Shown piece by piece: positions 190 through 49,200 of a stretch of 64,000 bases of DNA. The notes beneath the pieces are model-generated. The model made no database searches and was not told where the DNA came from. It saw only the letters and a program-made list of their open reading frames with translations. The stretch spans positions 62,001 through 126,000 of the forward strand of contig JAMZAV010003227.1 of assembly GCA_024449915.1 (NCBI GenBank). The letters are read 5' to 3'. Position 1 is the first letter of the stretch. The number at the start of each line of letters is the position of its first letter. Origin of the DNA: Sweltsa coloradensis. Taxonomy: Eukaryota; Arthropoda; Insecta; Plecoptera; Chloroperlidae. A program made the position numbers and the translations under genes.

Positions 190-770
190 ATCCCTAGAAC
201 AGTGGGAGCATTTGCAGTCTGTATATGATCACAGATAATAGAGTACTCTGTTATCTGTGATATGATGAATGGAACTTTCTATCTAGACAAAACAAATTGT
301 GAAAACCGTGAGCTGCTACACGGGTTAGCACATGCCTGTTTTTGGCAAGAGGTTTTTTCCAATCATCATTTTTGAACAGCTCCATAGTAAAGAATTCAGG
401 TCTAATTACAAGACGTTTTGACATGCAGTTATGAACGACAGTACGAAAGGCGTCTGATTGGCTTAGGTTAAATTTAAACTGTAGGTCAGCTACAAACAAT
501 GATTCATCTACCATCTCATACACCAAGCGGGAACGAGTAAATTTACATAGAGAAAGGATCTTTTTCATATAGGGTCTTAACCGATTCTAATTGTGTGAGA
601 TTGGCTTGGGAGAGGTAGGGCCATATGATTTCGAAGCCGTAGGAAGCAATCGGGGAAATTATAAGGTGGAAGAGTTTCATAGCACAAGAGATTGAGAGTG
701 AGTATAATTTGGAGATAAGGTGCATGGCTTTAAAAAAATATATCATCATCCAATTTTAACCCATGCATTG
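190..770 (-). pseudogene. LINE reverse-transcriptase C-terminal relic
   Basis: Two minus-strand open stretches (749-543, then 568-251) join across a frameshift near 555 into one LINE ORF2 tail. It contains an ASYGFEIIWPYLSQANLTQL-like stretch, the usual post-RT thumb region of non-LTR elements, then a basic region. Further on, near 190-215, a Cys-rich CKCSHCSRDCDLYH-like stretch remains, as expected of the C-terminal zinc knuckle. The reading frame is also broken by a palindromic insertion at 230-259. No start or poly(A) tail was identified, so this is a dead, 5'-truncated copy. Clade assignment (CR1/L2/Jockey group) is a guess from the motif style. Confidence 0.6.
230..259. mobile_element. 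30-bp palindromic micro-insertion with 7-bp TSD (copy 1)
   Basis: Two inverted arms, CACAGATAATAGAGTA and TACTCTGTTATCTGTG, meet with a 2-bp overlap and one mismatch. The element is flanked by exact 7-bp direct repeats ATATGAT (223-229 and 260-266). It sits inside a LINE coding relic and disrupts it. A second copy with its own different 7-bp duplication lies at 15532-15575. The direct repeats mean it arrived by transposition rather than arising by slippage. CA...TG ends and a 7-bp duplication would fit P- or Dada-type transposases, but that is only inference. Confidence 0.7.
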
Positions 771-1256
771 TTTTAAAAATTGTGAATTTTCTGGGATTTT
801 TTGGATGGTAAAAAAAAAAACTAGTAACCACAGATTTTCAAAATTCGAAATCCCCACACACAGATTCTAGGTAACAGGCTAATCTAGAAGATGGAAAAAA
901 TTAGTCTCTAAGACTAAATGCCAGGGAGTAAATGGTACCGGAATTTAGGCAATTTAACATGCGCGACATAGGCCATTCGTAAGAAAATGACTTGTGATAT
1001 TAATGACTTGTCAAGTTATATATTGTAGTAGGGTCGTCACTTTATAGATGTGCTCATCTGTAATGAAATTAATTATTATGTCCTATATGTAACTGATACA
1101 TATTGCTGCATAAAATAAATTAATGAAAAACACGGAAAATAAAATAGTAAAAAAGGGGGTTCATCCTTGGTGAAATTCATGATAATGCCCACTATGTAAC
1201 TAGTAAATATTGGCGATTAAAGAAATAATAATAACAATAACGTTAATTGTTTTCAG

Positions 1257-1447
1257 GCTCCCCTCTACCCAGCAGTACAATCGCACCGTTCAATAAGAGG
1301 GCACCGAATCCTTCCCTGGGGTCGATTGATTATGACTGCATCAAATACGTCAAGAATCCTACATCTGCGGACTCCAAGACCGGACTTACGGACGTATATT
1401 GTGCATTCAATTATCCTAGAACGTACTTTTGTGAAAGAGAGAAATAA
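1257..1447 (+). CDS. Last exon of an upstream C-type-lectin-like gene (partial)
   Basis: The exon follows a clean acceptor (tttcag) and enters in phase 1, as do the last exons of the complete copies at 35439 and 58971. It encodes about 62 residues ending CAFNYPRTYFCEREK and then TAA. The pattern C-I-K-Y, then C-A-F, then F-C-E matches the three terminal cysteines of a C-type-lectin fold and lines up with GCVKYYDD...C...VCEM in the downstream copies. It is 24 bases longer and clearly more divergent than those, so it is an older or differently selected member of the array. An AATAAA overlaps the stop codon. The rest of the gene lies left of the window. Confidence 0.72.
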
Positions 1448-3182
1448 AGATCAATTTCTTGGTTAGAGCAAGACCCCGATTAAATATAACTAGCGTTCGA
1501 CAAGGGTTGGAATTTGCGATGATGCGCATTGAAAATGTAATCGTTGAATCGTTTAGATGGCGAATTTTACCCGCGTAACCCACTAACCCGAGTTGAACAG
1601 TAAAGTAATATAAGCGGGGTTAAAATTCAAGAGCTACTGATTGAGAACGTATTTTAAAATTTAAATTTTGATGATTTAAATTTTCTGATGTATCTTTTGC
1701 GGAAGCATTGGAGTTATTGTCAAGATATTTTAACATTTTATTAATACTTCAAGTAGAATAACTCTAACCATGTGTTTTCATTAATCATTTTCTAAATTTA
1801 AATTGTATGGATTTTAATTAATACACTAGAGTGCTTTGATATATAGTTATTGAATTACATCGTTGAAAATTTCAAGTTTGATTCATTTATTAACCTCCTC
1901 ATAACAAGAAATCATATGAAAACAAGGTTTTTAAAGGTCGTAAAAGTTTGCCCCGACTGGAGATCGAACCCAGAACCTCCGGTTTTACGTACTCAACAAT
2001 CACAACATAAGCAATTTAGTCACGGTTTGCCATGGGCCTAGGGATCAGTTGGTGGCCGGTGACGGTACGTGAAGCCGGTCGTTCTGGGTTTGTTCACTAG
2101 TCGTTGCAAACTTTTACGACAATTACTATCATTCAATAAGCAATCAGACGTTTTTATTCAATGATAGCTGAGTTTATGTAAACAATGACTTCGAAGCTGT
2201 GCTGGCGCAAGAACACGAATCACAGAGTAAAAGTCTATCACGAGGCTGTATAGAAAGACTACCCCTAGTTTCCTATCTCACAGATTGACTTCCTCTTCAT
2301 TATGACCTCACATTCATTGTTTCATCTATTTTGTTTATAAGTATTGGAACTTACTAACAGATGTTTACCATAATCACTGTACAAGAGATAAGAATGTCGC
2401 TATGTACGTGTGTATATAACAATATTTAGATTTCAACCATCTTCCACATACGATTGCCTGATCTAATGCACGATTAACGATCCAGAGATACGTTTTTTTT
2501 TTAGCGTTTTAGGTTTTTTAATGCTAATTTTACAAAAATTAATGTTTTTTTATACTAATTGAGAATTAGTTTATCAATGTATTCTAGTGTTTTATTTGAC
2601 TATATTGAATTGAAAAGTTACTTTATTCATCATTTACCATTAGATGTGCAAGAAACACCCCACATTTAGGGTTTTGGTAGAAAATAAAAAATAGATGCTA
2701 CTTAATGCTAACATTGACAAAATTAATGCCTAATATTCAAAATTTAAAAAAAAATCTCTACGGTCTAATCATTTGAAAATACGACTTGTATTTGAAAACA
2801 TTTTTTTTCAAACGTAGTAACAATCTTACGTTGAAATTGCTACGCTAAAAAGATACAATTTTATTATTGTTGTCAATATGTTGAGAATGGTTGTGATGCG
2901 TTGGTGATAAGTAACATATTCTAAACCCCCTTTCAAAATGTATCAATAACACAACCTAAAATCTACTTTTTTTCACAATGTAACATTACAATTCCAAGGA
3001 TGGGACATGCTACATACACAATGGATATGAATTGAATACAATTTTATGTTTAAATATCTCTAAATCAAATGGGTTATCAAGAAATCACTTCCTCGTATAG
3101 TGCGTGTTTACAGTTTCGAAACAGATTCGCCTGATAATTAAGTTTAGTGCCCCCGCTCAACTTTTGGTGGACGGTAGCAGCG
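1448..3182. other. Spacer between upstream lectin gene and gene A
   Basis: This is AT-rich DNA without a supported gene. The only recognisable item is a minus-strand tRNA-like SINE head at 1945-2010, with an inverted B box in the segment ggagatcgaacccagaac. The 300 bases before gene A should hold its promoter, but no convincing TATA box was seen. Confidence 0.5.
1945..2010 (-). repeat. tRNA-like SINE head fragment
   Basis: On the minus strand the sequence reads GGAGGTTCTGGGTTCGATCT, which contains an RNA polymerase III B box (GGTTCGAtct), followed by an acceptor-stem-like GGGGC. No full cloverleaf can be drawn, so this is a SINE relic and not a functional tRNA gene. Confidence 0.4.
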
Positions 3183-3224
3183 ATGAGAACACTACGAATA
3201 CTTACGTTCGTATTCATCTGTATG
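3183..3224 (+). CDS. Gene A exon 1 (signal peptide)
   Basis: Encodes MRTLRILTFVFICM and ends in phase 0 at the donor ATG|GTAAGT. The same ending (-M then gtaagt) closes exon 1 of genes C, D and E, which supports both the start codon and the junction. Confidence 0.72.
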
Positions 3225-6200
3225 GTAAGTTTCCTTCATTTATATTTTTATACTAGAGTTTCAGGAAGTCTTTGGTGGCGCAGTATCTACTAACTTTGGG
3301 CGACTGGCGGTCAAGGAATGGAATTTTAACATGGGGATAGGCGGATAGGAAGAAATTACGTATTTTTCATTGGCTACGCAGATTAAAATATATTTACGGA
3401 CGCAATGTCAACATATCGGATAACTAAGGTTCTTCCAGTAACATTGAAATACTTTTGAAATTGAAACGGTATGTCTACTTCTAAAGCGTCGTAAGAGGCC
3501 AGCTGGCATAGCCCGTACACCAGCTATAACAAGTTCCTAGCTTTTAATTGTTTTTGAAAAAACTAGAACTTCAATTTCCATTATTTCATTGTAAAATCGT
3601 TAATAACAGATATAAGACAGATATTCGATTGGTTTGAACTGCCAAAATGTAATGCAGCTTTGAGTAATCTTAATTAAATTCATCCTTTTAACATGTGTTC
3701 AGATGGCGCCAATGTAATTTTTGTCCACCAGTCGGCCATGACAGTCGGTGTGACGTCATCTGAAGCTCTCGTATTGCAAGACGTAAACGTATTGATGACA
3801 AAAAAGGTTTACGTAACATAGTTTTATGACTATGCTTGAATGCTATACTAACATAACTTAACCAAGCTTTGAATTGGGTGCACATAAATTTTGGTACTTC
3901 AAAAATATCTATACATACGGCCAGGGCATGTATTGAACATTGAATAATTGTCAAGAAAGGATATTTTGTGGATGGCCCTTCACTACAGTATTACTAAATA
4001 AATATTTACTGTAAATTAGCTAGACAAAATATATGAAAACGTTCAATTTGGACTTTAAAAAATTCTAAATTGAGATAAACGATAAAAACAAAATAATGTT
4101 CTTATCTGTGTTTAGATATGAGTTTTTGTTCTTCTAAATGTTAGCTAGTTGAGTGTAAAAAACGGAAGAATTATTCTATGCGATTCCACCTCAATAACAG
4201 GAAATTCTTTAAAGAGCTACGTCAAGAACAGTATTTTTTCTTGTATGTGTTTCTTTAATACCGTTTATGTTTCATAGGCTAGAGTTCTCAAATGCACGGA
4301 TGGAAACGAACATAATATAGACGTTAGAAACTTAAATCAGCCGGATGGTTCTAAATCTGTCAAAGCTTCAATGCAGGTAAGGGGTTCATGATACTAAATT
4401 GTGAAGGTATTAACGTGTATCCAAAAGCTCACTATAGGCTCCTATTCAAGGTCGATGGGAATAGCAACTCTGCTTTTGAGCGAGAATTATCTGTGCTTGA
4501 TTACAGAGTAGAGACGGATTCCTCATTTTATGGACATTGCCTTTTTCGCCGATCTTCATTCAAGCGGAATAAGTAGTCTCGTAGACCTGTCAACCCTTAT
4601 TGGCTCGCGACGACTTAAGACAGCGTTGCCGATACGGAGGCTCCACTCCGTTCAACATAATAGGAAAGCAATTTAAATGTGTTGTGTTTGAAGCGGGATC
4701 ACATTATTATAGTTTCGAGTTATATTTGGCAACGTCGAGACACTGTCCTAGTGGAGGGTCCGTCGTTGACGAAGGTATAATTGGTACATTGGCAGGCCTG
4801 TTTGTAAATTTAGTTTCTTTGAGAAAATTAAATGCGATAAAATGCCGATCCCGATTTTACCTCCGTATGGCTATGTGGCGCTATTTATTTAAATTACCAG
4901 CGCAAACGCCATCACTGTAGATATCATGTCCACAAAGATCGTAAAGGCAAACTACATTATCCAGTAGACCTTGTGTTAGAAAATAAGGCAATGCCATTTA
5001 ATTTCCACCTCGCTGGTAAGATTCGATACACCTTGGTCACTCCATGCACTCACCGTCTGATAAACATGATTCGATAAAAAACGCAACCTTATTTTGTCAA
5101 TGAAATAAAGCGCTTATCTAGAAGGCCGCGATCTTTTCTAGCTACAGTGATGCTGATGTTCGCGTTGGTAACTAAAATAAAACAAAAGTAAATGAGAAGC
5201 TGCCTCCTTCATCCGCTAGATCGCATTGATTTTCCTTTGCAAGCGCGACTAGGATGACTCACAAGAGTGGTTTCAGATGACTCGTTGGTCTTGTCGTGTG
5301 GCTCGTTGGTCTTGTGGTTAGCGTATCTGCTTCCAATGCAGAAGGTCCAGGGTTCGATTCCCGCTTAAGTGAGAAGTTTTTTAACTTCTAATTTGGACTC
5401 AAGTCCATCAGTTCTTGTCTTAGGAGTTTGTAAACGGTGACTTTGGAGCCGTCCTAGCAACGAAGCACATAATAAATTCAGAGTTGTTCTGTCTGAATCG
5501 GCCTTGTTGATTCTGGCGTTGATCTGCGGGTGTTCGCACTGTCCATACCACTGATTGCTATATTTCCTATTAAAAATATCGATCTTTGGTTGGTTATCGC
5601 TCACTCGTCGATTGCGTCGGGGCCTACAGGGTTGGCTTGGTCGCTTTGATTTAAAGTCCTCCGCTGAAAATCAGTTATATAACTGAGTGGGTAGACTCTA
5701 AATACAATTTATTTATTTAAAGATAATTACATTTTAAGTCGTGTTATGAAAAAAATAAAATCAAGAATCCTGTGGAATACAAGCTTTTGTGTCAGATTTT
5801 AAAGCCAACGCGTGCCACGTTTGACGTCATTAAGCGCCTGCGCTCGGCTGCTTGTTCTCCTGCAGCGGTAACTGAGCCACAGTTGACGTCACGCGAGCAG
5901 GCGTGGCCAAGACACAGAATGTCAGTCAATATTTTTTTCCCAGCGTATTTTTTGTCCGATTTATTTTTTGTTTTGTTTTGCATAATCAAAATAATGTCTC
6001 AAAACCCACGATTAAATATATTTTTCAGATGAAATACTTTTTTGGTTGGATCAACTATAGCATCGAACATGCTACCTGTAATATTCGAATATCGAATATA
6101 TAAGTTGATCTACATTTATCGTTAGGCTAGCCATTAAAACAACGAGTACATCAATGACCTTGCACTACTAATTCAATTGTCATGGGTCATACCAGAGCCT

Positions 6201-8001
6201 CAAGGTTGTGATGAAATGCCCACGCAAACACCTACGCCATGGTTCTAGTTTCATATACACGTGTTGATTTCTCTGAAATCTATCGTCATTTCAAATCTAA
6301 ATCATGAATTAATCACAATGGTTATCTAAACAATACAAGAGTATACATTTAATATAATTTTAAAAAAAACTTCAGATTCTTAGTATACGATTAGAATCCA
6401 TTAATTCATCCCAAACAGTAACTGGTATATATTCCAAAATATGAATTTTTTGAAATCTGATCTTAATCAATCTTTTTAGAAAGGTAACTTGTTTATTCAC
6501 CCACTCTCATTTTACTTTGCAGACATGAATACAAATTAACATTCAATACGCTATTGACTTTTTTTTTAATATTCTCTTATTTCGTCACTTTTATAACTTG
6601 TGGGTATAATGCATATTTTGTGTTTTAAATGTGTACACTCTACATGTATGATATGTTGTAAATTATAAAAAAAGGTAATAAAAATAAATAAATAACATTT
6701 TATTGTTATATCGCAAATGTCGATTCCAGAAACTAAAAACACGTCATTCCACTCAATATAAGATTGGTTGATTTATAAAAAAATGTCCTACTATTATCTC
6801 TGTTGCAATATTACTTACATTATTAACTTTATGGGGATATAATGGTGAAATAACATAATAGTTTTATAAAAATTACATTCTGAAAAATAAAACGGAAAGA
6901 GAAGATGTCGTAACTTCGTACCTGGGTACACACAACTATTTCAAACTTTTCTTAACTAAATACAGTGCATTATTGTGTTTGCATTTGTGTGATTAGTTTT
7001 ATTCAGTTGTCCTCCTTTTTAAATCAGTTTTTATAACTGAATAGGATAAATCCACAATCAATCGGGTTAATAAACAATCTACACACGCGATTTTTTTTAC
7101 CTGGTTTGCCTGTTTAGTCTTTATTGCAAACGCATTTTGTTGACTTAAATTTCCATATCAAAAGTCTTGTATACCGCTCAAAATATATTTAAAGCCCTAA
7201 TTTAAAGAAATGTTTACCAAATAACTCCTTTGACATTTTCTTACATAAATTGGATGGATATTTTGTATTCGAATTACTTTTCTTTGTTGGAATTTGTACT
7301 TTTATAAGTATGATTGCCCTCCCTAGATGTAAGATAAAGGCACCCCGCCCCCCTTTTGATTTACCCTCTCAGAATCTCATATCGTGGTTGGTTTGTTTAA
7401 ACTGATCCGCACGTAGGCGAATCTACATTCTACATGCGTCATTTAATTCTACGGATATGTTTTTTACGAGATCAAATCACACATATATATTATAACTATG
7501 ATTTCAATCTAGCCTTGGTTAATATCACACCATAATTAACAGGAAAGAGAAGTCCCAATACATTTTTACCAAACAATATGAAGGAAGCGTTATTCATTTC
7601 ATTCTGTCAATAGCCTTGATTTACGTCACTTAAGTTTTTATAACATACCTTATGTATGTTTTTTAACTTTCTCGCGCGATCTCAATTCAATGGTAAATAC
7701 AAATTGTGGCAGTAGCTATTTTTTGGATTTGGACTGAAATCACAATTGGTATCAACACTTTTTCTCTTCTTGTGTACGTGTGTTACGACTTACTTTGAAA
7801 ACCGAAAATAACCTCCGATTGCCATATGTATTTTTGTTAAAATTGTCGTTGAACAAGGTGATACAAATGTTTTGGTGACCCTTGGCACATTTGAGGTTAA
7901 AGAAGAAATAATATCGACAGTGTTGGCTCGAGCGTTAAGCATGCGACTCTCATTCGGAAGGTCTAGTGTTAAAATCCCGTCAATAACGGCAATCCTGACT
8001 G

Positions 8002-8076
<75 letters not shown>

Positions 8077-11000
8077 TGGTATAAGAAATTTAATACTACT
8101 CACAATCAAATTAGAAAATGTCTCAACGAGTTTATAAATGGAGTTAAAGAAATACCCGAATTCTTTACTGAAGGAGTAACCTTTCTCAAACCAAAGGACA
8201 ATGACACGAAGAACCCAAGTAAATATCGGCCAATTACATGTCTACCAACTATATATAAAATTTTGACTTCATGCATAACAAATAAAGTATATAATCATTG
8301 CGAAGAACACAATATCATGGCCGAGGAACAAAAAGGATGCTGTAAGAACTCACAGGGATGTAAAGAACAACTTATTATTGACTCTACTGTAATGAATCAG
8401 GCCACACAATAAGAAAAGGAATATTCACGTAAACTACATTGACTACAAGAAAGCCTTTGACTCAACACCACCCCACATGGCTTATTTAGATTTTACAAAT
8501 ATATAAAATCAACCCAGTAATTGTAAACTTTTTGAAGACAGTAATGGAGACATGGAGAACAACACTAAAACTAAATATGAAAAACCAGCAGATAACTACA
8601 GATCCAATAAAAATTAAACGGGGCATTTTCCAAGGTGACTCATTAAGTGCATTATGGTTTTGTCTGTCATTAAAACCCACTGTCACATATGCTTAACGAA
8701 TCGACATACGGATTTAAAATTAAGGACAATAATGTGGTATGTCACACAATTTCCCACCTATTCTACATGGATGACCTAAAGTTGTATGCATCAAATTTGC
8801 TCAACTAAACAGTCTAGTCAATACAACATTAGAATTTAGTCAAGATATCTGCATGGAGTTTGGAGTAGACAAATGTAAGACGCTACATATCGAAAAGGGT
8901 AAGGTTACACAAGCAGAAGAGTTCCAGCTAGATGATGGAAATAGGATTGGAATAATGGACGATAACGAGGTATACAAATATTTAGGATTCTCACAAGCTG
9001 CCAGAATTGAACATAAAGCTATGAAAGCAAAATTGATAGATACATACAAGAAACGACTAAAGTCTATCCTCAAGACGCAACTAAACGGTAAAAACAAGAT
9101 CACAGCAATAAATACATATGCTGTACCAGTACTGACATATTCATTCGGAATCATTAAATGGACGCAGACAGACATCCACACGTTGGAAATATTAACTCGT
9201 ACTACACTTACCAAACACAGAATACATCATCCTAAATCAGCAATAGAGAGATTGACACTTCCAAGAGAAAAAGGAGGACGGGGCCTAATTGATCTGAACA
9301 ACTTATATTATAAACAAATAGACATTTTAAGAAAATACTTTTTTACAAAGAGCAAACCAATCCACACTGCATAGGGCTGTGGTGCTAGCTGACAAATCAT
9401 TAACTCCACTCAATCTAGCAAACGAAAATGTCAATCTACAAGGGAAAACTCATAAACTGACGCTTCAAAAGAGTTACGTCTCTCAGAAAAGACCCTACAC
9501 AAGAGACATTATGATGAACTACACAAAGGTCACGTAGATATTAAAGCATCAAATAGGTGGTTAAACAACGGGGAACTATTTGGAGAAACAGAAGGTTTTA
9601 TGATGGCTATTCAAGACAGAGTGATTGCGACGAACAATTATAAAAAATACATAATACAAGATGCGACAGTAAACGATCAATGTAGAAAATGTAGTGCAAA
9701 GGGTGAAACAATCGAACACATCATATCCGGGTGCAAGTCACTATGTCAAACAGATTACCTCTACAGACATAACCAAGTAGCTAACATTATTCATCAAAAA
9801 CTAGCAATCAAGTACAACCTCATTGACACACACACACCTTACTACAAATACAAACCAGAGAAAGTACTAGATAGTAAAGATTACAAATTATATTACGACC
9901 GCACAGTTATAACAGACCAAACGATACATCACAACAGACCGGATTTAATAATAATTGACAAGAAGAAACAAGAAACTACCCTTATCGACGTTGCTATCCC
10001 AATGTGCCATAACGTCGAGACCACGTGGAAGAAAAAAATTTACAAGTATAGTGAACTTGCAATTGAGATCAAGAAGATGTGGAAACAGAAAAAGGTAAAT
10101 ACAATCCCCTTCATTATATCAGCCAACGGCATCATACCGAAGAAGCTACATGAAAGCATTAAACAACTAGATCTTCAACCCAATGTATACATCGAGACTC
10201 AAAAGGCAGTAATACTCAACACGTGTAGAATAGTTTGTAAATTTCTAAACTAAGAATGATACTTCGAGATTCCGAGACAGCTTCCATCCTGACATGGTTT
10301 TCGTGGTTTCCCATAGTCCGAAGAGCAAATGCTAGGATGGCGACGAGAAATCGGCCACGACCGTACACAGCAGAAAGAAAACATCATCTACAAAAAAATA
10401 TTACAATTTATAAATGACTTATTTAGTTAGAGTTAAGACAAAAGTAATAATGTATGTAATAGGTACACATGGAAGTACTTGACGTAAGTCCGTACAACAT
10501 GTTAGCTCCGGTTTTAACCGAGTTTGTATGAAATACATCCAATAAAATAATAATAATAATAATATTATTATTATCATAATTTTTGTGGGAAGCCTGCCCA
10601 GAGTGCAATACATGTCGCCGGCGACTTCAGGTGTCTTACTAGGTATGTTGCAGATAGGACAATTGTGAAGGGACGTCCGAAGGCTGTTTAAGAGGACTCA
10701 AACCCTTGCATTTGCATTAATGACTGAGGAAAACCTAGGAAAAAACCTTCAGTCAGTATTGCCGGTCTCACGGGATTTGAACCCGGGACCTCCCGAATCA
10801 GAGTCGCGCGCTTAACTCTCGAGCCAACACTGTCGGTGCAATCCTGACTGTAGTTTTTCCCGAGGTTGTCCTTTATCGTTGTGGTCCTCTTCAACAGCCC
10901 TCGGGCATCCCTTCAAAATTGTTCTAATTCCAATATACCTTTTAAGATACCTGCAGACGGGCATGCATTGCAACCTGGGCTGATTTCCCACTAAATTATA

Positions 11001-12178
11001 ATTTCATATCATCGTTTTTTAAATAATGTTTGTTATTCTTTACAGAAAATAGCGACTTTAGTTTTCGGTTGTCCCGGCCTTGATCCCGGCGACGCCACCA
11101 TTACTTGCAACCACGCTAAAATTGAGAAGAGGTTTGGTCCAGGTCTTGATTGCACAGCCAAGGTTCCCGTGCGGACTCGTGCAAGCTTTGTTAGTTGTCC
11201 ACCAGGCTACGCTCAGGTCGAAGAATACTCCACCATTACCTGCAAGTTCCCGGGTGCCTGGGATAATGACGTCTTCACCTGTGATGGTAATTTAGAAAGA
11301 AAATGGATTTAGAGCGCGTCAACCGTTACGTCATAATGCGCCAGTCTAGCCTAGGAGATATGTGGAGAAAATTTTATGATGAAAAGAGGTTCTCACGTCG
11401 TGGTCGTCATCGTCTTTGTCATCGTTCGTGTTGTAATGGTTATTATGACCTAACGGTTGATGCGCCTTTAATTCAAATAAAAAAAACTGTTACTATCTAG
11501 AAAGATTAATGCCCATTCTTCAAATGTTTATGATTTTCTTTAAAAAATATTCTTTTTTTATTTCCAGTCATACCAACAACTGTGACAACTACGACAGTAT
11601 TGACAACAACAGTTACTAATAAAACCACTTTGGCCCCAACAACAAAACCGACCTCGAACACAACAATTCCTTCTAACTCAACCAAGCCTGCCAACACAAC
11701 TCTAGCTACCAACACAACAAAGATTACCAACACGACTCAAGCTACCAACACAACAAAGATTACCAACACGACCACGCTAGCCGGTAATACCTCGTCGGCA
11801 ACTACAACAGTTATCAATGGGACGAGTGTTTCTACATCATTGGCCACCACCACCGCTACAACATTGACAACTACGACACCGACAACTACGTCACCGACAA
11901 CTACAACACCGACAACTACGACGCCGACAACAACCCCCACCACGACAACCCCTACCACGACAACCACAACGACAACCACCCCTCAGACCGATGCTCCTAC
12001 GACAACTACATCCACGGAAAGTGCGACTGGTTCTACTTCGGTGGATACGACGACATCGCCGTATTGGGCGACTACCTCCGGAGAGACGAGCAGATCAAGG
12101 TCATACACCCAGAGCTGGGGGTGGGATTCACGTAATAGAGACAACTGGCGGGGGGATTCGCGTAATAGGGATGTTTAA
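3183..12178 (+). CDS. Gene A: secreted sushi-like/mucin protein lacking the lectin domain
   Basis: Four exons: 3183-3224, 4278-4376, 11046-11286 and 11568-12178, about 330 residues. Residues 1-14 (MRTLRILTFVFICM) are a hydrophobic signal peptide. Residues 15-47 are a linker of unknown function. Residues 48-127 are a six-cysteine domain containing GCPGLDPGDATITC, SFVSCPPGY and ITCKFPGAWDNDVFTCD, which resembles the second half of a sushi/CCP repeat. Residues 128 onward are Thr-rich and mucin-like, with several N-x-T sequons, ending in a DSRNRD-repeat tail. The first ATG precedes the hydrophobic core. All three splice junctions keep frame and match the sister genes in phase. Unlike genes C and D it stops inside the mucin exon and no lectin exons follow before gene C. 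Intron 2 is swollen by nested transposons. A secreted, O-glycosylated product is likely; its ligand is unknown. Confidence 0.75.
3466..3790 (+). repeat. Interspersed repeat, copy 1 of 3
   Basis: A block running from ctaaagcgtcgtaagaggcc to a gtgacgtcatctgaagctct-type end recurs at 37637-37945 (+) and, inverted, at 36880-37160. It has no coding capacity. The three dispersed copies make it a non-autonomous element of unknown class. It lies in gene A intron 1. Confidence 0.6.
4278..4376 (+). CDS. Gene A exon 2 (linker)
   Basis: The exon is 99 bases, phase 0-0, acceptor cataG and donor CAG|GTAAGG. Its C-terminal KSVKASMQ lines up with KPIKTSHQ, KPVKASAQ and KPVKTYVQ of genes C, D and E; the rest has diverged. 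Confidence 0.68.
5299..5717 (+). repeat. tRNA-derived SINE (family S2), full length
   Basis: It starts with a tRNA-like head (gctcgttggtcttgtggtta) and carries a B box GGTTCGATTCC at 5351-5361. A roughly 300-base body follows. It ends with the stem-loop ATCAGTTATATAACTGA and an AT-rich tail. A near-identical copy lies at 62995-63410 and fragments at 33120, 44935 (inverted), 49345 and 61735 (inverted). The 3' stem-loop resembles the ends of LINEs here, so a LINE partner very probably mobilised it. It sits in gene A intron 2. Confidence 0.82.
6985..7065 (+). repeat. LINE 3'-end fragment with terminal stem-loop
   Basis: Contains tcctcctttttaaatcagtt, then the hairpin ATCAGTTTTTATAACTGA and gaataggata. 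Sister fragments are at 14990-15105 (+) and 37190-37290 (-). Severe 5' truncation that keeps the same 3' end is typical of non-LTR retrotransposition. Confidence 0.55.
7918..8003 (+). repeat. SINE family S1, 5' part of a split copy
   Basis: The tRNA-like head (agtgttggctcgagcgttaa, then gactctcattcggaaggtct) stops at gcaatcctgactgta. The same 15 bases restart at 10838-10852 and the SINE body continues there to about 10985. This half and that half are one SINE interrupted by a later insertion. Confidence 0.8.
8003..8074. repeat. (TAA)n microsatellite, 5' of Dong-type LINE
   Basis: About 72 bases of TAA repeats, broken once (aatataat). They directly precede a Dong-type LINE body. They are probably the target array, itself part of the tail of the inverted S1 SINE at 10575-10837. 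Confidence 0.85.
8075..10545 (+). mobile_element. Dong/R4-type LINE, 5'-truncated and frameshifted
   Basis: Reverse-transcriptase motifs run in order: SKYRPITCLPTIYKI, EEQKGCCKNSQGCKEQL, VNYIDYKKAFDSTPP, RGIFQGDSLSALWFCLSL and HLFYMDDLKLYAS with a YMDD active site. A C-x2-C-x8-H-x4-C knuckle follows (CRKCSAKGETIEHIISGC, 9690-9745). Then comes a PD-(D/E)xK restriction-like endonuclease core, RPDLIIIDKKK...LIDVAIP. This domain order and TAA-array insertion are those of the R4/Dong clade. Long open frames remain at 8853-9374 and 9600-10253, but at least three frameshifts break the ORF near 8410, 8690 and 9375. The 3' UTR ends ccaataaaataataataat. It is dead and lies in gene A intron 2. Confidence 0.85.
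10575..10837 (-). repeat. SINE family S1, inverted copy
   Basis: Read on the minus strand, it begins ACCGACAGTGTTGGCTCGAG. It has a B box in GGTCCCGGGTTCAAATCCCG, a body with a conserved TGCAAGGGTTTGAGTCC, and ends CTTCCCACAAAAATTATGAT in an AT-rich (ATT)n tail. It inserted into another S1 copy, giving the 15-bp duplication at 7989-8003 and 10838-10852. Confidence 0.82.
10838..10985 (+). repeat. SINE family S1, 3' part of the split copy
   Basis: It starts with the duplicated gcaatcctgactgta and continues as the S1 body (gttgtcctttatcgttgtgg, then cctcttcaacagccctcggg) to ctgggctgatttcccac, matching the 3' end of the other S1 copies. It ends about 60 bases before gene A exon 3. Confidence 0.75.
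11046..11286 (+). CDS. Gene A exon 3 (six-cysteine sushi-like domain)
   Basis: The exon is 241 bases, phase 0-1, identical in length to the exons at 27859 and 42123. It holds six cysteines: GCPG, ITC, LDC, SCPPG, TCKF, FTCD. The block V-x-S-C-P-P-G-Y...ITCKFPG-W-D...C follows the later half of a CCP module. The ITC here lacks the N-glycosylation sequon that genes C and D have at NITC. Confidence 0.82.
11312..11470. mobile_element. Foldback MITE filling gene A intron 3
   Basis: Inverted ends gcgcgtcaaccgttacgtca (11313) and ttatgacctaacggttgatg (11443) enclose a short non-coding core. Related copies with the same ends and core (tctttgtcatcgttcgt) are at 39507-39735 and, inverted, 52903-53150. 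The insertion makes up most of this 281-base intron. Confidence 0.65.
11568..12178 (+). CDS. Gene A exon 4 (mucin-like, terminal)
   Basis: Enters in phase 1 after tttccag and runs 203 codons to TAA. The first 170 residues are mostly Thr with Asn, Pro, Ala and Ser and include TNTTKITNTT-type repeats. They should be heavily O-glycosylated. At 12080-12082, where the mucin exons of genes C and D end in G|GT, this copy reads GGA and continues into a basic, Ser/Arg/Trp-rich tail with two DSRNRD units. This suggests read-through into former intron sequence. Confidence 0.75.
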
Positions 12179-12642
12179 CCCTTTACAGGATCCCAACATT
12201 TTGTTTTCTCTTTTTTATAGATATTTTTCCTTGATCTTGTGCTGATTTTGCTTTACAAATTGACAAAACAATGAGTTTATTTTAAAAAAATATGATTTTT
12301 TTGCGATTTTTCCATAATTTTTCCTTTTTATTACATGATCAATTTGGATCGACTACAGGCAAATAAAATATCCGGGGCATCCCGGAAATTTGTTTATTTT
12401 GTTTTTATACAAAATTTTATTTTGAAACTATTATTAAAATCATTCTAATCATTAGAATTTAGTTGGGAAAAATTCTACCAATTCCGAACAAAACAAAGCA
12501 GCTTTTTACCCAGGTTCAAAAGAATGAAAATTTGGCAGATACAATTGTGTAGCTTTTGGAAAGGGGTGGTAAATATGTTTCCCATTAAAATAAAATAAAT
12601 ACTATAACAAATAATCAATATTGATTTTAGGATATGGAATAC

Positions 12643-12925
12643 ACTAGGGAAACGCCAAAGTCGTTGTTAAACGAGTGAGTGAGCCATGTGTTAAGTACCC
12701 GATTACATTACTTTTCTTCCCCCTACCTTGGGCCTACCTAGCCTATCATAGGCTAGAGAGGCGCATTATGACCTTACAGTTGACGCGCCCGTCCCCGTAT
12801 ACCAACTAAACTTTAAAAACTATTATTTATACGAATATAATTATCAAACTTAAATGCAAATGTTCCCGGGTACTCACCACATGACTCGCTCACTCGTCTC
12901 ACTACGACTTTGGCGTTTCCCTAGT
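12643..12925. mobile_element. Helitron-type non-autonomous segment with inverted CTAG ends
   Basis: Left end ACTAGGGAAACGCCAAAGTC and right end GACTTTGGCGTTTCCCTAGT are mirror images for about 40 bases, including gagtgagtgag. The right end looks like a Helitron 3' terminus: a short GC stem, then CTAG followed by T. A sister copy lies at 33694-33971. It has no coding capacity. Confidence 0.7.
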
Positions 12926-14115
12926 CTACTTGGCTAAAGCGCCCTTGTAGCCGAAATGTGAAAGAAGTGAGTTCAATTCCCCGGTCGGGAAAGATTTTGT
13001 AATTTCTAGATTGTATTTCAAAAATAATTGAACATGATTTGAAATGCATAATATAACGCAGTGTTGTCCATCATCTGTGGCAATAGGGCCTACTATGGTA
13101 AACATAGCCAGTACGAAATACGTGAAAATATTGCAAGGTTTACTCAATCTACGAGCGAATTTTGTGGGTACCTTGACGTGCAACATTCGACAGACCTTGC
13201 ATGGGCACGGCATTTCACGGCCAGGCGAATAATAAAACAAAAAATATATTTTCAAAATCTAAAACATTGTACCCGATTACATTACTTTTCCTCCCCCTAC
13301 CTTAGGCCTACCAAGCCTATCATAGGCTAGAGAGGCGCATTATGACCTTACTACAGTTGACGCGTCCGTCCCCGTATGCCAACTAAACTTTAAAAAACTA
13401 TTATTTATACGAATATAATTATCAAACTTAAATGCATATGTTCCCGGGTACTCACCACATGACTCTCTCACTCGTCTAACTACGACTTTGGCGTTTCCCT
13501 GGTCTAGTTGGCTAAAGCGCCCTTATAGCCGAAATATGGGAGACGTGGGTTCAATCCCTGGTCGGGAAAGATTTTGTAATTTCGAGATTGTATTTAAAAA
13601 ATTATTAAACATGTTTTGAAATGCATATAACGCAGTGAAGTCCATCATCTGTGGCAATAGGGCCTACTATGGTAAACATAGCCAGTACGAAATACGTGAA
13701 AACATTGCAAGGTTTACTCAATCTACGAGCGGAATTTGGGGGTACTTTGACTTAAAACATTCGACAGACCTTGAATGGACACGGCATTTCACTGCCAGGT
13801 AAATAAAAAACAAAAAATATCTTTTCAAAATCTAAAACATTGTCGTTAAAATAATTTCATAACATTGGAAGTCTATTTTTCAGTTTATTATTTCTTGTAT
13901 GTTTAATAAATCGCAATGAATCTTGCTGATTTTGTTAGCAGTTCTCAATAAACTCGTACCGGATGTCCGTTTAAAATTTCAGCGCAATCTGTTCAGCGAT
14001 TCGGCTGATTTTTAACGTACACACACACACACACACACACGCACGCACGCAGAAAAACAATAAGGTCCGTTTAAGTCGAATGGAAATCACTACGTTCGCT
14101 ACGCTCACTCGTTCA
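12926..14115 (+). repeat. Tandemly duplicated tRNA-like repeat joined to the Helitron-type element
   Basis: After the CTAGT end comes a tRNA-like head (ttggctaaagcgcccttgta, B box near gagttcaattcccc) and a body to about 13265. From 13272 the sequence restarts at a point equal to 12697, giving a second copy about 575 bases downstream. That copy continues through another tRNA-like head at 13503-13570 and an AC microsatellite at 14018-14050 to ctcactcgttcaataa. The copy at 33972-34555 has the same order once. One composite non-autonomous element with an internal duplication is the simplest reading. Confidence 0.6.
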
Positions 14116-14159
14116 ATAAATAATCAATATTTAATTAAATCTAGAGATTTAATAAACCA

Positions 14160-14235
14160 TCCTTACCGGGGTTCGAACCCGCGTCTCCCAAATTTTAGGT
14201 AAGCGTCTTGGGAAACTATATACCACCAAGACGGT
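14160..14235 (-). repeat. tRNA-like SINE head, minus strand
   Basis: On the minus strand the sequence reads GTTACCGTCTTGGTGGTATA and later GGGTTCGAACCCCGGTAAGG, a good B box. The variable region is too long for a normal tRNA. It is a SINE head from a third tRNA-like family. Confidence 0.45.
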
Positions 14236-14530
14236 AACTCAATAATTTATTTGTAGGTGCGTTATACATGTGAACTGATGTTAAAACATCATCTGTTGGT
14301 ACGTCCAACTCTGCGTTGGGTCGGCGTAGAAGATTGATCTCTTCATCTTCTTCTGTCCTGCCACCACTCTTCCCAGTCCACAACATTCCAGTCTCCTCAT
14401 CGCTGTGCCACATATTTCCTCACACTATTCTGCCATAGTTGTCGTGGTATTCCCCTTGGTCTCCTACCTGGAATTCCTTTCCATCCCTTTGACATATCCA
14501 AACCGCTTAAATCTTCTCTCTCAAATTCGC
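14235..14530 (-). pseudogene. Probable LINE C-terminal relic
   Basis: Minus-strand frames give short pieces such as ETKGIPRQLWQNSVRKYVAQR-like and WWQDRRRWRDQS-like segments. Such W/R-rich patterns are common after the RT domain of some LINEs. Frames are broken several times. Clade and borders cannot be set. Confidence 0.3.
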
Positions 14531-14989
14531 TCAATACTATTTGATCTTGAATTTACTAATTTTTTATTCGGTCCCATCTGGTCTTACCTACAATGCTAAA
14601 ACTCCACGTCCACAAACACATAATTAATTTACAAACAAATTATTTTAATACAACAACTTTTGATATTGAAATAGTTGATGTGCTGTGATTATCATATCCT
14701 AAAAATCCGTTCCAAGCGAATACATTTAATAAATGAGATAATGTCAATCGATTCAAAACATTTTACAGTGATGCATCCGTCTACATTTTATTAAAGGACT
14801 GTTATTCGTGTCACGATGTCCATGGAGATATGTATATTATTAAGCTTTATTGCATACTTTAAAAAATCAACCTTCGGAAAATTTTTATTTTTTTATGATG
14901 TCCATTCCAAATTTTTGAATATACATTTTTAATCGGTTTTCCAATATATTGTTAGATTAACTACACTGATGTAAAATTTTAATTTTTAT

Positions 14990-15105
14990 GATGTATTTAA
15001 TTTCTGTTTATTGTTGTGTGCATTTATGTAATCTTCGTTATATTTTTTGTTCTCCTTTGTAAATCAGTTTTTATAACTGAATAGGATAGACGTTAAATAA
15101 ATAAA
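14990..15105 (+). repeat. LINE 3'-end fragment with terminal stem-loop
   Basis: Contains ttctcctttgtaaatcagtt, the ATCAGTTTTTATAACTGA hairpin, then aggatagacgttaaataaat. This is the same 3' end as at 6985-7065. No coding part is left. Confidence 0.55.
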
Positions 15106-15531
15106 ACTTAAGAGGATATTATAGGACATGCGTTATAAGCTAAATCATGTTAGAGCTCGGCCGACTGACACCACAGATGTTTGACATTTTTGGTAGTTTT
15201 ATAATCTACAGTAACACTTTTTTTCTTAAATTAATAATAATTTTTAAAAAATCATTATTTTGTATTTTGTTGAAAAGTCCAAAATTTACTATATTCGTGA
15301 CTTGATCATGACTTTTTGACAAAAATTATTAAAAATCTATCTCTAGTGCTGTCTATGTATGCTTTATTGAAAACTATGTTGAGTTTCATCTTATGTCGGA
15401 TGCTTCCTGGCTGAGCGAATAATGTCCTATTCCCTCCCTCGTACTGAGATATCAGTCATCACTACAGCCTTCTACGCTATGACGAAGTTGATTTGTAGGT
15501 GTTAACCTCCAACTTTCTTATAAGCTCACAC

Positions 15532-15575
15532 CACAGATAATAGAGTACACTACGTAGTGTACTCTGTTATCTGTG
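15532..15575. mobile_element. 44-bp palindromic micro-insertion with 7-bp TSD (copy 2)
   Basis: Arms CACAGATAATAGAGTACACT and AGTGTACTCTGTTATCTGTG face each other around TACGTA-type symmetry (one mismatch in 22 bp). Exact 7-bp direct repeats CTCACAC flank it at 15525-15531 and 15576-15582. The outer 16 bases of each arm equal those of the 230-259 copy; this copy has 14 extra central bases. Confidence 0.72.
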
Positions 15576-15986
15576 CTCACACAGTAAATTAGTTGCACCG
15601 CGGTTGTATTCATCCCGTCTAAAATAATCATTCCTGAAAGTATTTGCAATATTAGTTTTGGACTTAATTCTGTTATTTTTAACTTACTTAAATTGAACTG
15701 TTATTTTTTTTTATTATAAAATTTAAAAAGAATAGACATATTCAGATATTGTAACCAACATCAAATACCTGTTCTGACTTGTTTTATTTACATAATTCTA
15801 AAATTAGCTGAAATTAAAAATTAATATATTGTTTTGAAAACTCTACAAAGCATTCAATAATTCATAGTTCAGTTTTTTTGTAAATATATCACATTTTTTA
15901 CATGATAATATTTAGAAGTGACATGTTACATGGTAAGTATAAATAAAATAAAAGGTCTACATTGCACTGTATAGGATGGCAAGTAA

Positions 15987-19472: not shown

Positions 19473-35605
<16,133 letters not shown>

Positions 35606-43200: not shown

Positions 43201-46200
43201 TTTAAAGAGCATACTAAAATAAAACTATAGCCTGGTTTTAAATTGAGTTCTTATAGGGGCTATTACACCGAAAAAATTATTTTTTACAAATAATATACAA
43301 CATAAAACTACACTCAAATGTCCGTTTAAAAATTATATGTTGAAACTGTGATTTGACAAGAATTTTTTAAATTTTTGATCGTAAAATTTGCGAAAATTGT
43401 CGTTTTGTGAAATTTATTAAATTGGTTTTAGCTTGCTTCTTTTTTGTTCCACATAGATAATAGAGCATCATGCCAATCTGAAATGGCACTTTATTTCATC
43501 GTGCCAACACTCAAACACGCAAAAATACACATTCCAAAATAACACCCCTTCTTGATAATCAGCATATTTTGACAGAACCACTTGCCCAAATTACAAAACA
43601 AAATATTAAGGATTTACAGAAAAGGCTACCAAGTACGTCAACAATGGCAAATATTTTTTGGGTCAAAATCCTCCAAGGTCACGGGTCATAAAGATCGTCC
43701 CCATGTTATTTCTTATGTTAGATTTTTGACGATGGGACCTAGCTCGAGAAATACCAAGTTTGACAATTTTTTTTTAAGGTCAGGGTGCACCCAATTATTT
43801 TTCTGTTAATTTCTTAATTCATAACTAGTTTGCATTAATGAAATATTTTAGTTTAGTTTAGCAGGTGAATACCCCTTTAATCAATTGAGTTCTTATGATT
43901 GAGACATCTAATTGAAATGTTTCAGTTGTAGTCACTGAGCCAACAACGACAACTACGAATGCAACAACAAAACCAACAACAAAACCAACAACAAAACCAA
44001 CCACCAAGCGACAGAACACAACATCTGCCAAACCAACAAATAAAACTACCATTGCAACAAAGATCACCACAAAACTTCCCAATACCACTATCACATTACC
44101 AGCCACCGCTTCAATCTCTACAACTGCGTCTACTGCCACCTTATCTGTGGGTACTACCGCCCCACCCGGCACCACTACCGCCCAACCAGCCACTACCACT
44201 TCAACTCCTGCGCCCTCTACCACACCAGTGGCTACCACAGCTAGTACTACTGCTGCCGCAACTGCTAGTTCTACTACTACCACCCAAGCGGCAGTCTCGA
44301 CAACTGCGGCTACTACTGTAGCTCCAGTTACCACTTCAAGCGTTGCTTCTACAACGGCTCCGGCCACCACATTAGGCGCAGTTGTTACTACAACTACACT
44401 GGCCACTACCGTCGCAGATACTGCTACGACTACCGTAGCAACTACCACAACTTTATCACCAACAACAATAACAACAGAAGCAACAACAACACCAACAACA
44501 ACAGAAGCTACAACAACACCACCAACAACAACAACTGCACCAACTACTACGACAACAACTGCAACGACGACAACCACAGCCACAACTACAACAACCACAG
44601 CCACAACTACAACGCGAACTCCTCCTTCAGGTAAAAGACCGTTAAGCTATTGTACCACCTCTGGCCGATAGTTTGAAAGTCGAAGAAACATGTCTGAAAA
44701 GTTTGCTGAATGAAAGAAGGCCTTTAAAATAACAGAAAAAAATTGATAAATTTTTTGGGCGGGACATAACCTCACTTTTGGAAATGATACATAGATTTTT
44801 GGACAAAAGTGTAATATACAAGTCTAGTTCAAAATTAAATTTTGAGAATCGGTTTTCTGGACATAGTTTCTAAACACCTTTAGCTATAACTTGACTATAG
44901 CTAAAATAGTTTTAAATAAATAAATAAATTTTATTAAGAGTCTACCCACTCAGTTATATAACTGATTTTCAGTGGGGGACTTTAAATCAAAGCGACCAAG
45001 CCAACCCTGCAGGCCCCGACGCAATCGACGAGTGAGCGATAACCAACCAAAGATCGATATTTTTTTTCTGAAAATAACAGTTGGTGTACGAATTTTTTTG
45101 TCAAACGGTACAAAACTGGAAAGTTATCTTGCATGCGGGACAGAATTAAACGCCTTGCTCCCGTCTAATGATATTACATCTATTTGTTTAGTCGAAATTT
45201 CGTCCATCATGTGCTGCCAGTCCTCAATCAATTCTGTTAGCATGGTTACGCAAGACCTTTTGGGAAGAAATCCATGCTGTTGATTGTTGATTAGGCCGTG
45301 TTCATTATTGAAGTGCTTAAGGATGTAAAACGAAGTACCCTTTGTCTAGCATTTTACACAGAACCGATGTAAAAGCAATATGTCAAATAGTTGTTTACGT
45401 CCTCTTCGTCCCGGCCTTGTTATAGGAACCACCCGTTAGCCGGCTTTCAAAGTCACCCGGGATTTGCCCTGTGGAAGTGACAGGTTGTAGAGGACAAGCT
45501 AACGACGGTGCAACAGCAACTGCACACTCTTAAATTCTTGTGGGTATGCCTCCGGCCCAGAGCCAGCTCCTGCACGAAGTTTCTTAATCTTAAGTAGAAC
45601 AATGTCCTCAGTGACCATAATATCTCCGGGGGTCAGGGGAGGTGATGGGGCGTTGATGCCGAACGATTCAGATGTGGGTGGAGGCGGTTAAAATTAGGAT
45701 TAATTTTTGTGCACGTAAAGCTTTGCTAGTCCTTAGGGTCACGAAGCAATTTGTCTCCTGCCGAAAAATTCCGGGGCCGTACTTCCACTTTTCCACGAAT
45801 AAATTCCAGACATTTGGGATTATTTGATTGTGCCTAGTGTCCAATGTAGCTGCTGATGAGATGACGTGTGGGACGCTTACATTCTTCTTAGCTTGCATAT
45901 TTCTCTAAATTCCTATCACTGGGCTCTACTTTCCAACGCTTGTATAGTTGTCACGTTTCTTGATGAGGTTAACAATCGATTTGTGTTTCCAGGGACGCTG
46001 CTTACCACTGATAGTAACTTTGGGAATAGATCTGTCGACATTTAGCCAGAAGGTTGTCTCAAATGATGCCAAAACTGTTCAATGTCATTGTGAACGCTAA
46101 CACTGGAGGTTGTTAAATAATATCCTCTAGTTGATCCCAATTAGCCTAGTGTAGTTGTATGCTTCTTAGGATAGTTTTATCTTTGGTTTTTTAATTTAAG

Positions 46201-49200
46201 TTGAGGTTTGAGAATAACCTCATGATCACTCACTTCTGGAAGTACCTGCACGTGTTGACAATGTGTTCGTTGCATAACACTAGGTTCAGAGAGATGATTG
46301 TGGCGGTGATCCTGGTTGGTCCTGCACTTACTGAGTAAAAAGAGGTCATCAAAATGCCGTCAGATACTCTTCTGCAATTTATATTGCACGTTTATGCATT
46401 AATGTTCCAGTAATGTCCAAATTAAAATCCCCAAAGCAAAACAGCCCTTAATTTCTCATTTGTCTTGGACTAGTTTAGAGAAGCTAGCATTTTAATATCT
46501 GTTCTGGCATTAGATTCGCTCTATAGGGGAACCACAAGTATTTATCCCGAACAAACCCCATCTCAACCCAAATATTTCCGCGTCCGTCTCAAGATCACAC
46601 GCCTCACTGCAGCAAGTTCCGGCCTCGTGGCAATAAGCACTCCACCTCTAGAGACTTTCTGTCTTTAGTGTTCCGGCCTTTTTCGTGGCCTCGTGCAATA
46701 AGCACTCCACCCTAGACTTTCTGTCTTTAGTCCGGCCTCTGGACATAAGCACTCCACCCCTAGAGACTTTCTGTCTTTAGCTCCGGGCCCTTTCGTGGCA
46801 ATAAGCACTCCACCTCCTGGGAGACTTTCTGTCTTTCTAAACACTGTATAAGTGTCGCCAAAAAGTTCCCAGTCAACCCAAACTTCACATGGACAAATTT
46901 TTGATGCATTTGAGCCTCAAGCCTCGCTCGGATGAGTGGTGGACGGTTGGCGTTATTTAAACTTCTTGCATTGAAGGACAGCACTGACATGTTGTTGCAA
47001 TGCTTAAAGGAAACGTCCCCAAAGTCTAGTCTATGCTACTTTCAAATAGAGAATCAGAGAACTGTGGTACAGTACATTTCCAGCAAGTGTACTTTTCAGT
47101 TCCTCTAGCAATCAGTCTGTATTCTCGCCCTGTGATATCTGCGCATGTTTTGTAGATTGGTGACGAGCACTTTGAGCAATTTATAAAAAGAATGGTTTTT
47201 TTCTTCCACCTAAAAGGCAAACGCCACAATAAGTGGCTCGTGGGGGTCCGGGGTTCAGTTCAATATCGCCGCTGAGGGCAAGTATCAGTGGAACGACAAC
47301 ACTGGGCGCCAAGGTGGGTTCCCGACGACGCCGAGACCGAGGTCTGCCTCTGACGCAATCCCAGAACAAAACAAGCATTCTACACGATAATTTAGATCCA
47401 CACAGCGTGTAGGCCGAAACTTTACATTTACCCACAATCAATAAGTTTTCATGCAATTTGTTACAATGTATGGTCACATGAATGCTATGCTGTCGAAACA
47501 GTGACGCTCTTGAAAATGTCAATGCGTGTCTGATTATTAAAAATACCAGGATACTCCATAGCATTCTGCTAAGTACACCTCTGCATGCTACCATTTTGCT
47601 GACGATACTTGGATGCACAGAAATGGTAGATTTGTATCTTTCTTTATAGGATCTCCGATGTACTACCACCAAAATAAACTGTCAACTGTTTAAATTTTCA
47701 CTTTCACATTATGTTGTAAAAAAAAAGATAATATTAAATCATGATTTACTTACAAACTCTGCCAAATAAACTTTAGATAACGATTACCCAGAGTAATTAG
47801 GGTTCACAAAATATTACAAGATAAAAATTATTGACAATTAACACTTTGAAAGTAAAAATATTAAATAAAAACATTGACATACAATTTTTTTACAAGTCCA
47901 ATAAAACACACCGCCTACACATTTTACATACATACATGCATACAGTTATAATATAAGCCTTATACAGGCATACAATCAACAAGCAACTATAAGTTTCTTG
48001 ACAATGATCGCCTACATTGTTTACACAAAAAGCAAGTCTTTTGGCCACTAGATATTTTACATTCTATTGTTAATTGGTTATACTATAGCAATTAAATCTA
48101 CTTTGATAAAATTATTATATTTTAACAAAAAAATTTGCAATGGAACTTGAAAAAGTAATGAGATCCCACACATAACAAAAACTTGTAAAAATACAGCCAA
48201 ACCTTACACACTCAAAAGAAATGAGATCTAATAAAAGGGCAAAGGTCATCTACCCTTCCACATTTGCGCATTCTTAATTCATAAACGTACTGTGTCCCAT
48301 AACAACATCCTAGAAAAGCTTAGCAAAATAGAATTTGCATTACCATTACGTTTAAAGTAATTAGAAAAAAAGAATTTGGATGAACTAATGTTTAAATTAA
48401 TTCTAGTTGCAAATTCTATTTTGCCAAGCTTTTCAAGGATGTTGTTACGGGACACTGTACGTTTATGAATTAAGAATGCGCAAATGTGGAAGGGTAGATG
48501 AGCTTGGCCCTTTTTTAGATCTCATTTCTTTTGAGTGTGTAAGGTTTGGCTGTATTTTTACAAGTTTTGTTATGTGGGGGTGTTGGTGTACATGAATGAC
48601 TTGAAAATGTTTTTGAATGTATTTTTATTATTTCTAGGGTACGGGAAACCTTTCTCAGGCAAGATCTACAAGTGGTTGTCATGGAATAACATGACGTGGA
48701 ACATCGGTGAAAATGCATGCAGGGCGGATGGTAACCACCTGGTTATCGTCAATGACGCAGCAGAGTTGGCACATATCAGGCAGAATATAGCTAATAGCTT
48801 AGATTTCTTTGTGGGAATTACAGACCTCGCTGCGAATTCTGTTTTCATAACTGTTGATGGTGAGTTTAAGACATGTAGAGATGATTTTGATGGTTGCTGA
48901 CAGAATATGTATAACGATGTTTTAACCTAGGTTTTATATTTGGCTACTATGACATATATTTTTGTTCATGATACCTTCAATATGTATAATTCAAATATCA
49001 AATCTACTTGCAATAATTAAAATCCTTTAATTGGCACATCTAGTCCAGATTTGAACGCATAACATTGATCATAGAAATAGGTCTTGTTGCAAGACGGTTA
49101 GAGCTAGAAAACTTAATCATTGTGCAGACAAGTAAGATTTTACATTCTCATTTGCTGCTCAACTTGCAGTACCTAGGAGTTTTTTTTTTTTTTTTTTTTA

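Follow-up and report, generated by a model that had tools for sequence, protein, structure and literature searches.

Two Short Palindromic Inserts in the Window

The stretch of Sweltsa coloradensis DNA analyzed here, referred to as the window (64,000 nucleotides; contig JAMZAV010003227.1, positions 62,001 to 126,000 of the forward strand), contains two inserts of 30 and 44 bp that consist of almost nothing but two facing arms and are each enclosed by a perfect 7-bp target-site duplication. They are very probably scars left by a much larger DNA transposon of the P superfamily. Both were described in an initial annotation made from the sequence, and the coordinates and letters given there are exact. 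The arrangement of the two sites, with the reading frame broken by copy 1, is as follows.

223-229, + strand: left target-site duplication of copy 1 (ATATGAT, 7 bp), an exact repeat of 260-266
230-259, + strand: copy 1 insert, 30 bp, CACAGATAATAGAGTACTCTGTTATCTGTG, read as an excision footprint
260-266, + strand: right target-site duplication of copy 1 (ATATGAT, 7 bp)
116-562, - strand: frame broken by copy 1, rejoined on removal of 37 bp
15525-15531, + strand: left target-site duplication of copy 2 (CTCACAC, 7 bp)
15532-15575, + strand: copy 2 insert, 44 bp, CACAGATAATAGAGTACACTACGTAGTGTACTCTGTTATCTGTG, read as an excision footprint
15576-15582, + strand: right target-site duplication of copy 2 (CTCACAC, 7 bp)

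Read against the inverted repeat of the full element described below, copy 1 is composed of two 17-nt stretches, one from each transposon end, that overlap by GTAC (17 + 17 - 4), and copy 2 likewise of two 24-nt stretches that overlap by ACGT (24 + 24 - 4). Both ends of the full element L211 give 24-nt matches to copy 2, one exact and one at 95.8%. Within each copy the arms differ at position 10, where one has T and the other C, with T in the left and C in the right arm of copy 1. The 16-base arm with up to three mismatches is found seven times in the window compared with 0.68 expected, four of the seven being the arms of the two copies, and none of 100 shuffles reached seven matches. A scan of the window for short inserts (24-199 bp) bounded by inverted ends of 12 bp and by a direct repeat of at least 5 bp returned 11 rows, among which copies 1 and 2 alone combine a length of at most 44 bp with a 7-bp repeat. 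Nine weaker matches to the arm, without an exact duplication, are also present in the window and are left out of the counts; three, on the minus strand with starts at 13079, 13653, and 34122, lie inside a tRNA-like dispersed repeat. This repeat is present at 12876-13177, 13454-13753, and 33924-34207 in copies 85-91% alike, each with a tRNA-like stretch, and is presumably a tRNA-derived short interspersed nuclear element.

Copy 1 had been described as interrupting the coding frame of a long interspersed nuclear element. The interruption is borne out, as deletion of 30 + 7 bp restores an open minus-strand frame; a protein search with the upstream part of that frame found no homologue and so gave no confirmation that it belongs to such an element. 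No insert-free paralogue of the broken frame was present among the matches listed in a search limited to the fetched DNA.

Abundance of the Arm in the Genome

The genome searched is the assembly that holds the window (GCA_024449915.1; 1.449 Gb in 16,871 contigs), and the controls are the reversed (backwards) patterns searched alike. In the genome-wide search that the initial annotation had suggested, the 16-base arm proved to be common, with 1,674 + 1,689 places at up to one mismatch (3,363) compared with 15 + 11 (26) for the control. A two-ended pattern of 14-base arms separated by 0-30 bp gives 505 places and a control of 0. A two-ended site may count twice among the 3,363, so that distinct sites are fewer, and subtraction of the at least 505 second arms leads to an estimate of about two thousand or more distinct scar sites. 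Continuation into a full element is seen at none of the 30 loci fetched for the 16-base arm (26 sites, in contig order) and in at least three of the 100 listed 16-base-arm rows (C43 twice and C60:858412; L181-L183). Arm matches were also returned from viral and prokaryote collections; these appear to be chance, an inverted pair within 5 kb being present in 0 of 135 fetched loci.

Full Elements and the Transposase Gene

A longer, 27-base arm with up to two mismatches occurs at 318 + 312 places (control 0), at least 83 rows being exact. Several of these arms pair in inverted orientation 6-14 kb apart and delimit full elements of 6.6-14.4 kb. Elements L211 (6,624 bp) and L212 (6,692 bp) are 97.4% identical over most of their length, have perfect 34-bp terminal inverted repeats, and contain no frame longer than 124 codons. 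The C3724 element is larger, with exact 27-mer ends 14,359 bp apart and 36-bp inverted repeats, and has subterminal DNA in common with L211 at both ends. Four paired elements show exact 7-bp duplications, CTTCAGA at C3664 (L211), CTAGAAG at C545 (L212), ATACAAG at C3724, and CCCGAAT at C43, and in all four of these pairs the duplication abuts position 1 of the element.

Of 375 candidates for the P-transposase RNase H family in the genome, at least 150 were scored as matches, many of them within long open frames, and these were compared with the 100 listed places of the 27-base arm. One P-like match, C3724:74639-75043, lies between exact 27-mer ends, so that the long, transposase-bearing copy with these ends that the initial annotation had proposed to look for was found once. 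The gene is predicted to have two exons (71899-71996 and 73744-76624) with GT-AG borders and to encode about 993 residues. The protein matches RNaseH_N (1.8e-35), the GTP-binding insertion (5.3e-21), and RNaseH_C (6.3e-9). A THAP domain is partial on exon 2 (6.9e-6) and whole after the predicted GT-AG splice (2.9e-15), and the P-type helix-turn-helix (PF12017) scores 19.7 bits, below its cut-off of 23. The only solved sequence at E of 0.01 or better is the fly P transposase (PDB code 6p5a, 6.4e-43), whose residues Asp-230, Asp-303, and Glu-531 are all conserved in the C3724 protein; the roles of the D/D/E residues are those given in PMC7776569. A protein search in which 7,988 candidates were scored gave at least 66 relatives, the best named ones listed being insect proteins with 37-41% identity. 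By the tests made, the D/D/E residues, an RNase H domain interrupted by the GTP-binding insertion, the THAP domain, the inverted repeats, and the 7-bp duplications place the parent element in the P superfamily.

Target-site Duplications and One-ended Sites

Duplications were recorded in 63 cases, in which some sites stand once per strand and both window copies are included. A 7-mer repeat in the expected range is exact in 38 of the 63, has one mismatch in 17, and has two or three in eight, compared with an exact 7-mer repeat at 421 of 22,800 random positions; some of the 38 are spurious, lying within the arm (e.g., L143 and L164). At ten further sites, an exact repeat of at least seven letters is present in nine. 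The finding that the initial annotation had named as telling against it, most copies lacking 7-bp repeats, is not what these records show. The target consensus is roughly STWNWAS, with T at position 2 in 64 of 76 strand-doubled counts.

Many sites have a single arm between perfect 7-bp duplications, for example L152, L153, L156, L160, L161, L199, L222, and L223. A two-ended transposase substrate needs both its ends, whereas a trimmed scar can lose one. Scars are also found inside full elements. One at L211 5785-5834, with the duplication GTAGTGT, is common to L211 and L212 and was probably formed once and then carried along, and the fetched part of C3724 contains two (L218 397-428 and 1845-1862) with the duplications CATCAGC and GTGATAG. 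Scars travel with a later host element in this way, so that a scar common to several places is by itself no proof of its own mobility.

Centers and Joints of the Two-ended Sites

The joints were analyzed in all 50 two-ended places listed of the 505, among which 34 distinct centers occur. Of the 50, 31 are plain joints between two copies of the same end, with a microhomology of 0 nt in four, 1 nt in 11, 2 nt in two, 3 nt in nine, and 4 nt in five; the fraction with at least 3 nt (14 of 31) compares with 13% under uniform trimming. By a first count the other 19 have inserts, nine of which are a single change away from a plain joint and may have mutated after a plain joining. In the remaining ten, the match of the inserted bases to the element's own arms sums to 70 nt, a value that none of 2,000 shuffles equaled (mean 37.7, maximum 49), and a looser set of 14 inserts gives the same verdict (87 nt compared with 50.3 shuffled). 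The insert at L178 copies the neighboring end together with 3 nt of the duplication of its own site, which points to repair in place.

The Arm Limit and the Probable Position of the Cut

Thirty sites fetched from the at least 83 exact-27-mer rows comprise 13 full element ends and 17 scars. The scar arms end at 27 in 14 of the 17 and at 28 in three, and none ends at 29-33. The arms of 28 are at L184, L198, and L202, where the 28th base, a C, coincides with the base that comes next in the partner arm or in the duplication. Among the 50 two-ended scars, whose selection did not depend on arm length, the longest arm is 28, seen once, at L184.

With the duplication set immediately against position 1 in the four pairs, cleavage of the strand joined to the target has to fall at the element's tip, and the donor retains at most 27 nt, so the other strand would be cut about 27 nt inside. 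DDE transposases join the 3' ends of the element, which would make the donor tails 3' tails. A 27-nt staggered cut of this polarity is thus suggested jointly by the arm limit, by the contact of the duplication with position 1, and by the chemistry of DDE transposases. The fly P element has the same geometry with 17-nt tails and an 8-bp duplication (PMC7776569).

Probable Excision Footprints and Alternative Explanations

Both inserts are interpreted as footprints left by the excision of a cut-and-paste DNA transposon of the P superfamily, with a probability of about 0.93. The features by which such a footprint is recognized are present, with both duplications kept, remnants of the ends, and a variable junction. 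In the proposed mechanism, each site would first have received an element of several kilobases, with duplication of 7 bp of the target. Its own transposase would later have excised it, cutting the transferred strand at the tip and the opposite strand farther in, about 27 nt into the 34-36-bp inverted repeat. This would leave the donor site with two 3' single-stranded tails that hold the ~27 outermost nt of the element. These tails would then be trimmed and either paired at a microhomology (GTAC for the 30-bp insert and ACGT for the 44-bp insert) or extended on a nearby template, and their joining would yield the order duplication, end, end, duplication. The repair pathway is suggested to be polymerase-theta-like, and the scars would be heritable and of germline origin. 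Two origins had been put forward in the initial annotation. The inserts as products of joined ends corresponds to what is found, the ends being those of a much larger transposon joined in place after excision. Minimal transposase substrates do not agree with the data, as the centers lack the sharing seen in a copied family (34 distinct ones in the 50 listed), many half-elements stand between perfect duplications, and the most frequent center is found on three arm-allele combinations.

Several observations weigh against the footprint interpretation or limit it. Among the matches and places compared, the transposase gene is linked to the ends of one element only, and the full elements are known from the pairs examined. 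No locus was seen filled on one allele and scarred on the other, and no test of filled versus excised sites was run. The evidence for the 27-nt limit comes for the most part from sites selected by an exact 27-mer. Some arms have no clear duplication (the eight records with two or three mismatches, and L228 with none), and the repeats at L221 and L227 are 8 and 9 letters long instead of 7. The center TACACCACGTAGTGTA (44-bp) recurs in seven of the 50 scars. It is found on three combinations of the T and C alleles at position 10, which speaks against a single mobile 44-mer and leaves the recurrence still unaccounted for; templating of TACACCACGTAGTGTA by the first bases of the duplication fitted four sites, failed at the next three, and was rejected. 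Some of the 34 centers may also be one joint with a later base change.

The alternative that survives best overlaps with the footprint interpretation and accepts excision, taking the 27-nt limit as the boundary of a binding site or of repair instead of staggered cleavage. The cut position is deduced from sequence, and 27 nt is unlike the 17 nt of the fly P element (PMC7776569), both of which favor a boundary. However, the duplication at position 1 in four of four pairs puts the transferred-strand cut at the tip and the donor keeps at most 27 nt, and this alternative is considered unlikely.

Less probable still is an origin as ultra-short miniature inverted-repeat transposable elements (MITEs), 30-44-bp palindromes mobilized in trans by a P-like transposase and inserting as such. 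The perfect 7-bp duplications and the single 44-bp center in seven of 50 scars would agree with this, but the 34 different centers in 50, the exact duplications around one-ended copies, the inserts copied from local arms (at L178 from its own duplication), and the presence of the recurrent center on three arm-allele combinations do not. An equally small chance is given to internal-deletion derivatives, in which abortive gap repair of a full element would be followed by transposition and multiplication. Internal deletions are familiar in P elements, and the 6.6-kb copies found here lack a long reading frame. Random deletion predicts no sharp limit, however, so the halt of the retained ends at 27-28 of the 34-36 nt of the inverted repeat in the sites examined counts against such derivatives, and one-ended copies have a whole end missing. 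An assembly or low-complexity artefact is hardly credible, as the backwards-pattern controls are 0 or near 0 and duplications and flanks vary between sites, even if palindromes can confuse assembly.

Relation to Known Elements

The Drosophila P element has a homologous transposase with the D/D/E residues, THAP domain, and GTP-binding insertion, and its excision products recovered in the laboratory, with 17-nt tails and templated inserts, have the same order of duplication, end remnant, insert or microhomology, end remnant, and duplication (PMC2895639). The systems differ in the 8-bp duplication and 17-nt tails of the fly element (PMC7776569) compared with 7 bp and a 27-nt arm limit here; the present element also stands apart by its 34-36-bp repeats, by the sequence of its ends, and by the great many natural scars within a single genome. 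Galileo, a P-superfamily element of Drosophila likened here by description and not by direct sequence comparison, has 7-bp and occasionally 8-bp duplications and a palindromic target, GTANTAC (PMC4168063), that resembles the STWNWAS seen here; its long foldback-like inverted repeats (PMC2775673) are unlike the 34 bp of L211 and L212 and the 36 bp of C3724. Zebrafish Pdre2/THAP9 represents the superfamily, with a THAP transposase, in a non-insect animal, and differs in its 13-bp inverted repeats and 8-bp duplications (PMC10983969). MITEs are similarly short, with inverted repeats and target duplications, whereas the scars have no common internal sequence, are in some cases one-ended, and on the evidence here are not mobile units.

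A literature search with the 16-mer arm returned nothing, and a full-text search with most subscription papers outside its range showed, in the text available, neither this family nor a 27-nt cut nor scars in comparable numbers. P-element excision scars are already known from fly experiments, and a natural genome appears to hold them in great number. We lean toward the broader proposal of a P-superfamily branch with a 27-nt stagger, ten nt above that of the fly P element or about one helical turn, whose usual fate is excision followed by end joining and not template repair, leaving about two thousand or more heritable scars that are each an independent record of end joining on near-identical tails. 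Many scars from one defined pair of ends form a data set on the repair of breaks with long 3' tails, covering microhomology choice, templated inserts, and trimming. Cleavage at 27 nt is predicted for the C3724-type transposase. In genome annotation, the label of miniature transposon should be avoided for very short palindromic inserts flanked by target duplications.

Other Features of the Window

A plus-strand reverse-transcriptase frame (RVT_1 1.7e-20, 25146-26528) is followed by a second frame, and the region 25146-27004 is apparently one retrotransposon with a frame break; the frames at 8853-10253 are similar to these by eye. A MITE-like element of 160 bp at 48294-48453 has inverted ends and a 5-bp direct repeat, and an element of about 181-183 bp at 31453-31635 has inverted ends, its 181-bp reading being flanked by GTTTAAAC repeats. 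Three threonine-rich low-complexity frames on the plus strand (11582-12178, 28603-29298, and 44147-44671) are mucin-like in appearance. The plus-strand region 53634-54425 contains a DUF6570 domain (3.9e-13), a domain known from Helitron-type elements.

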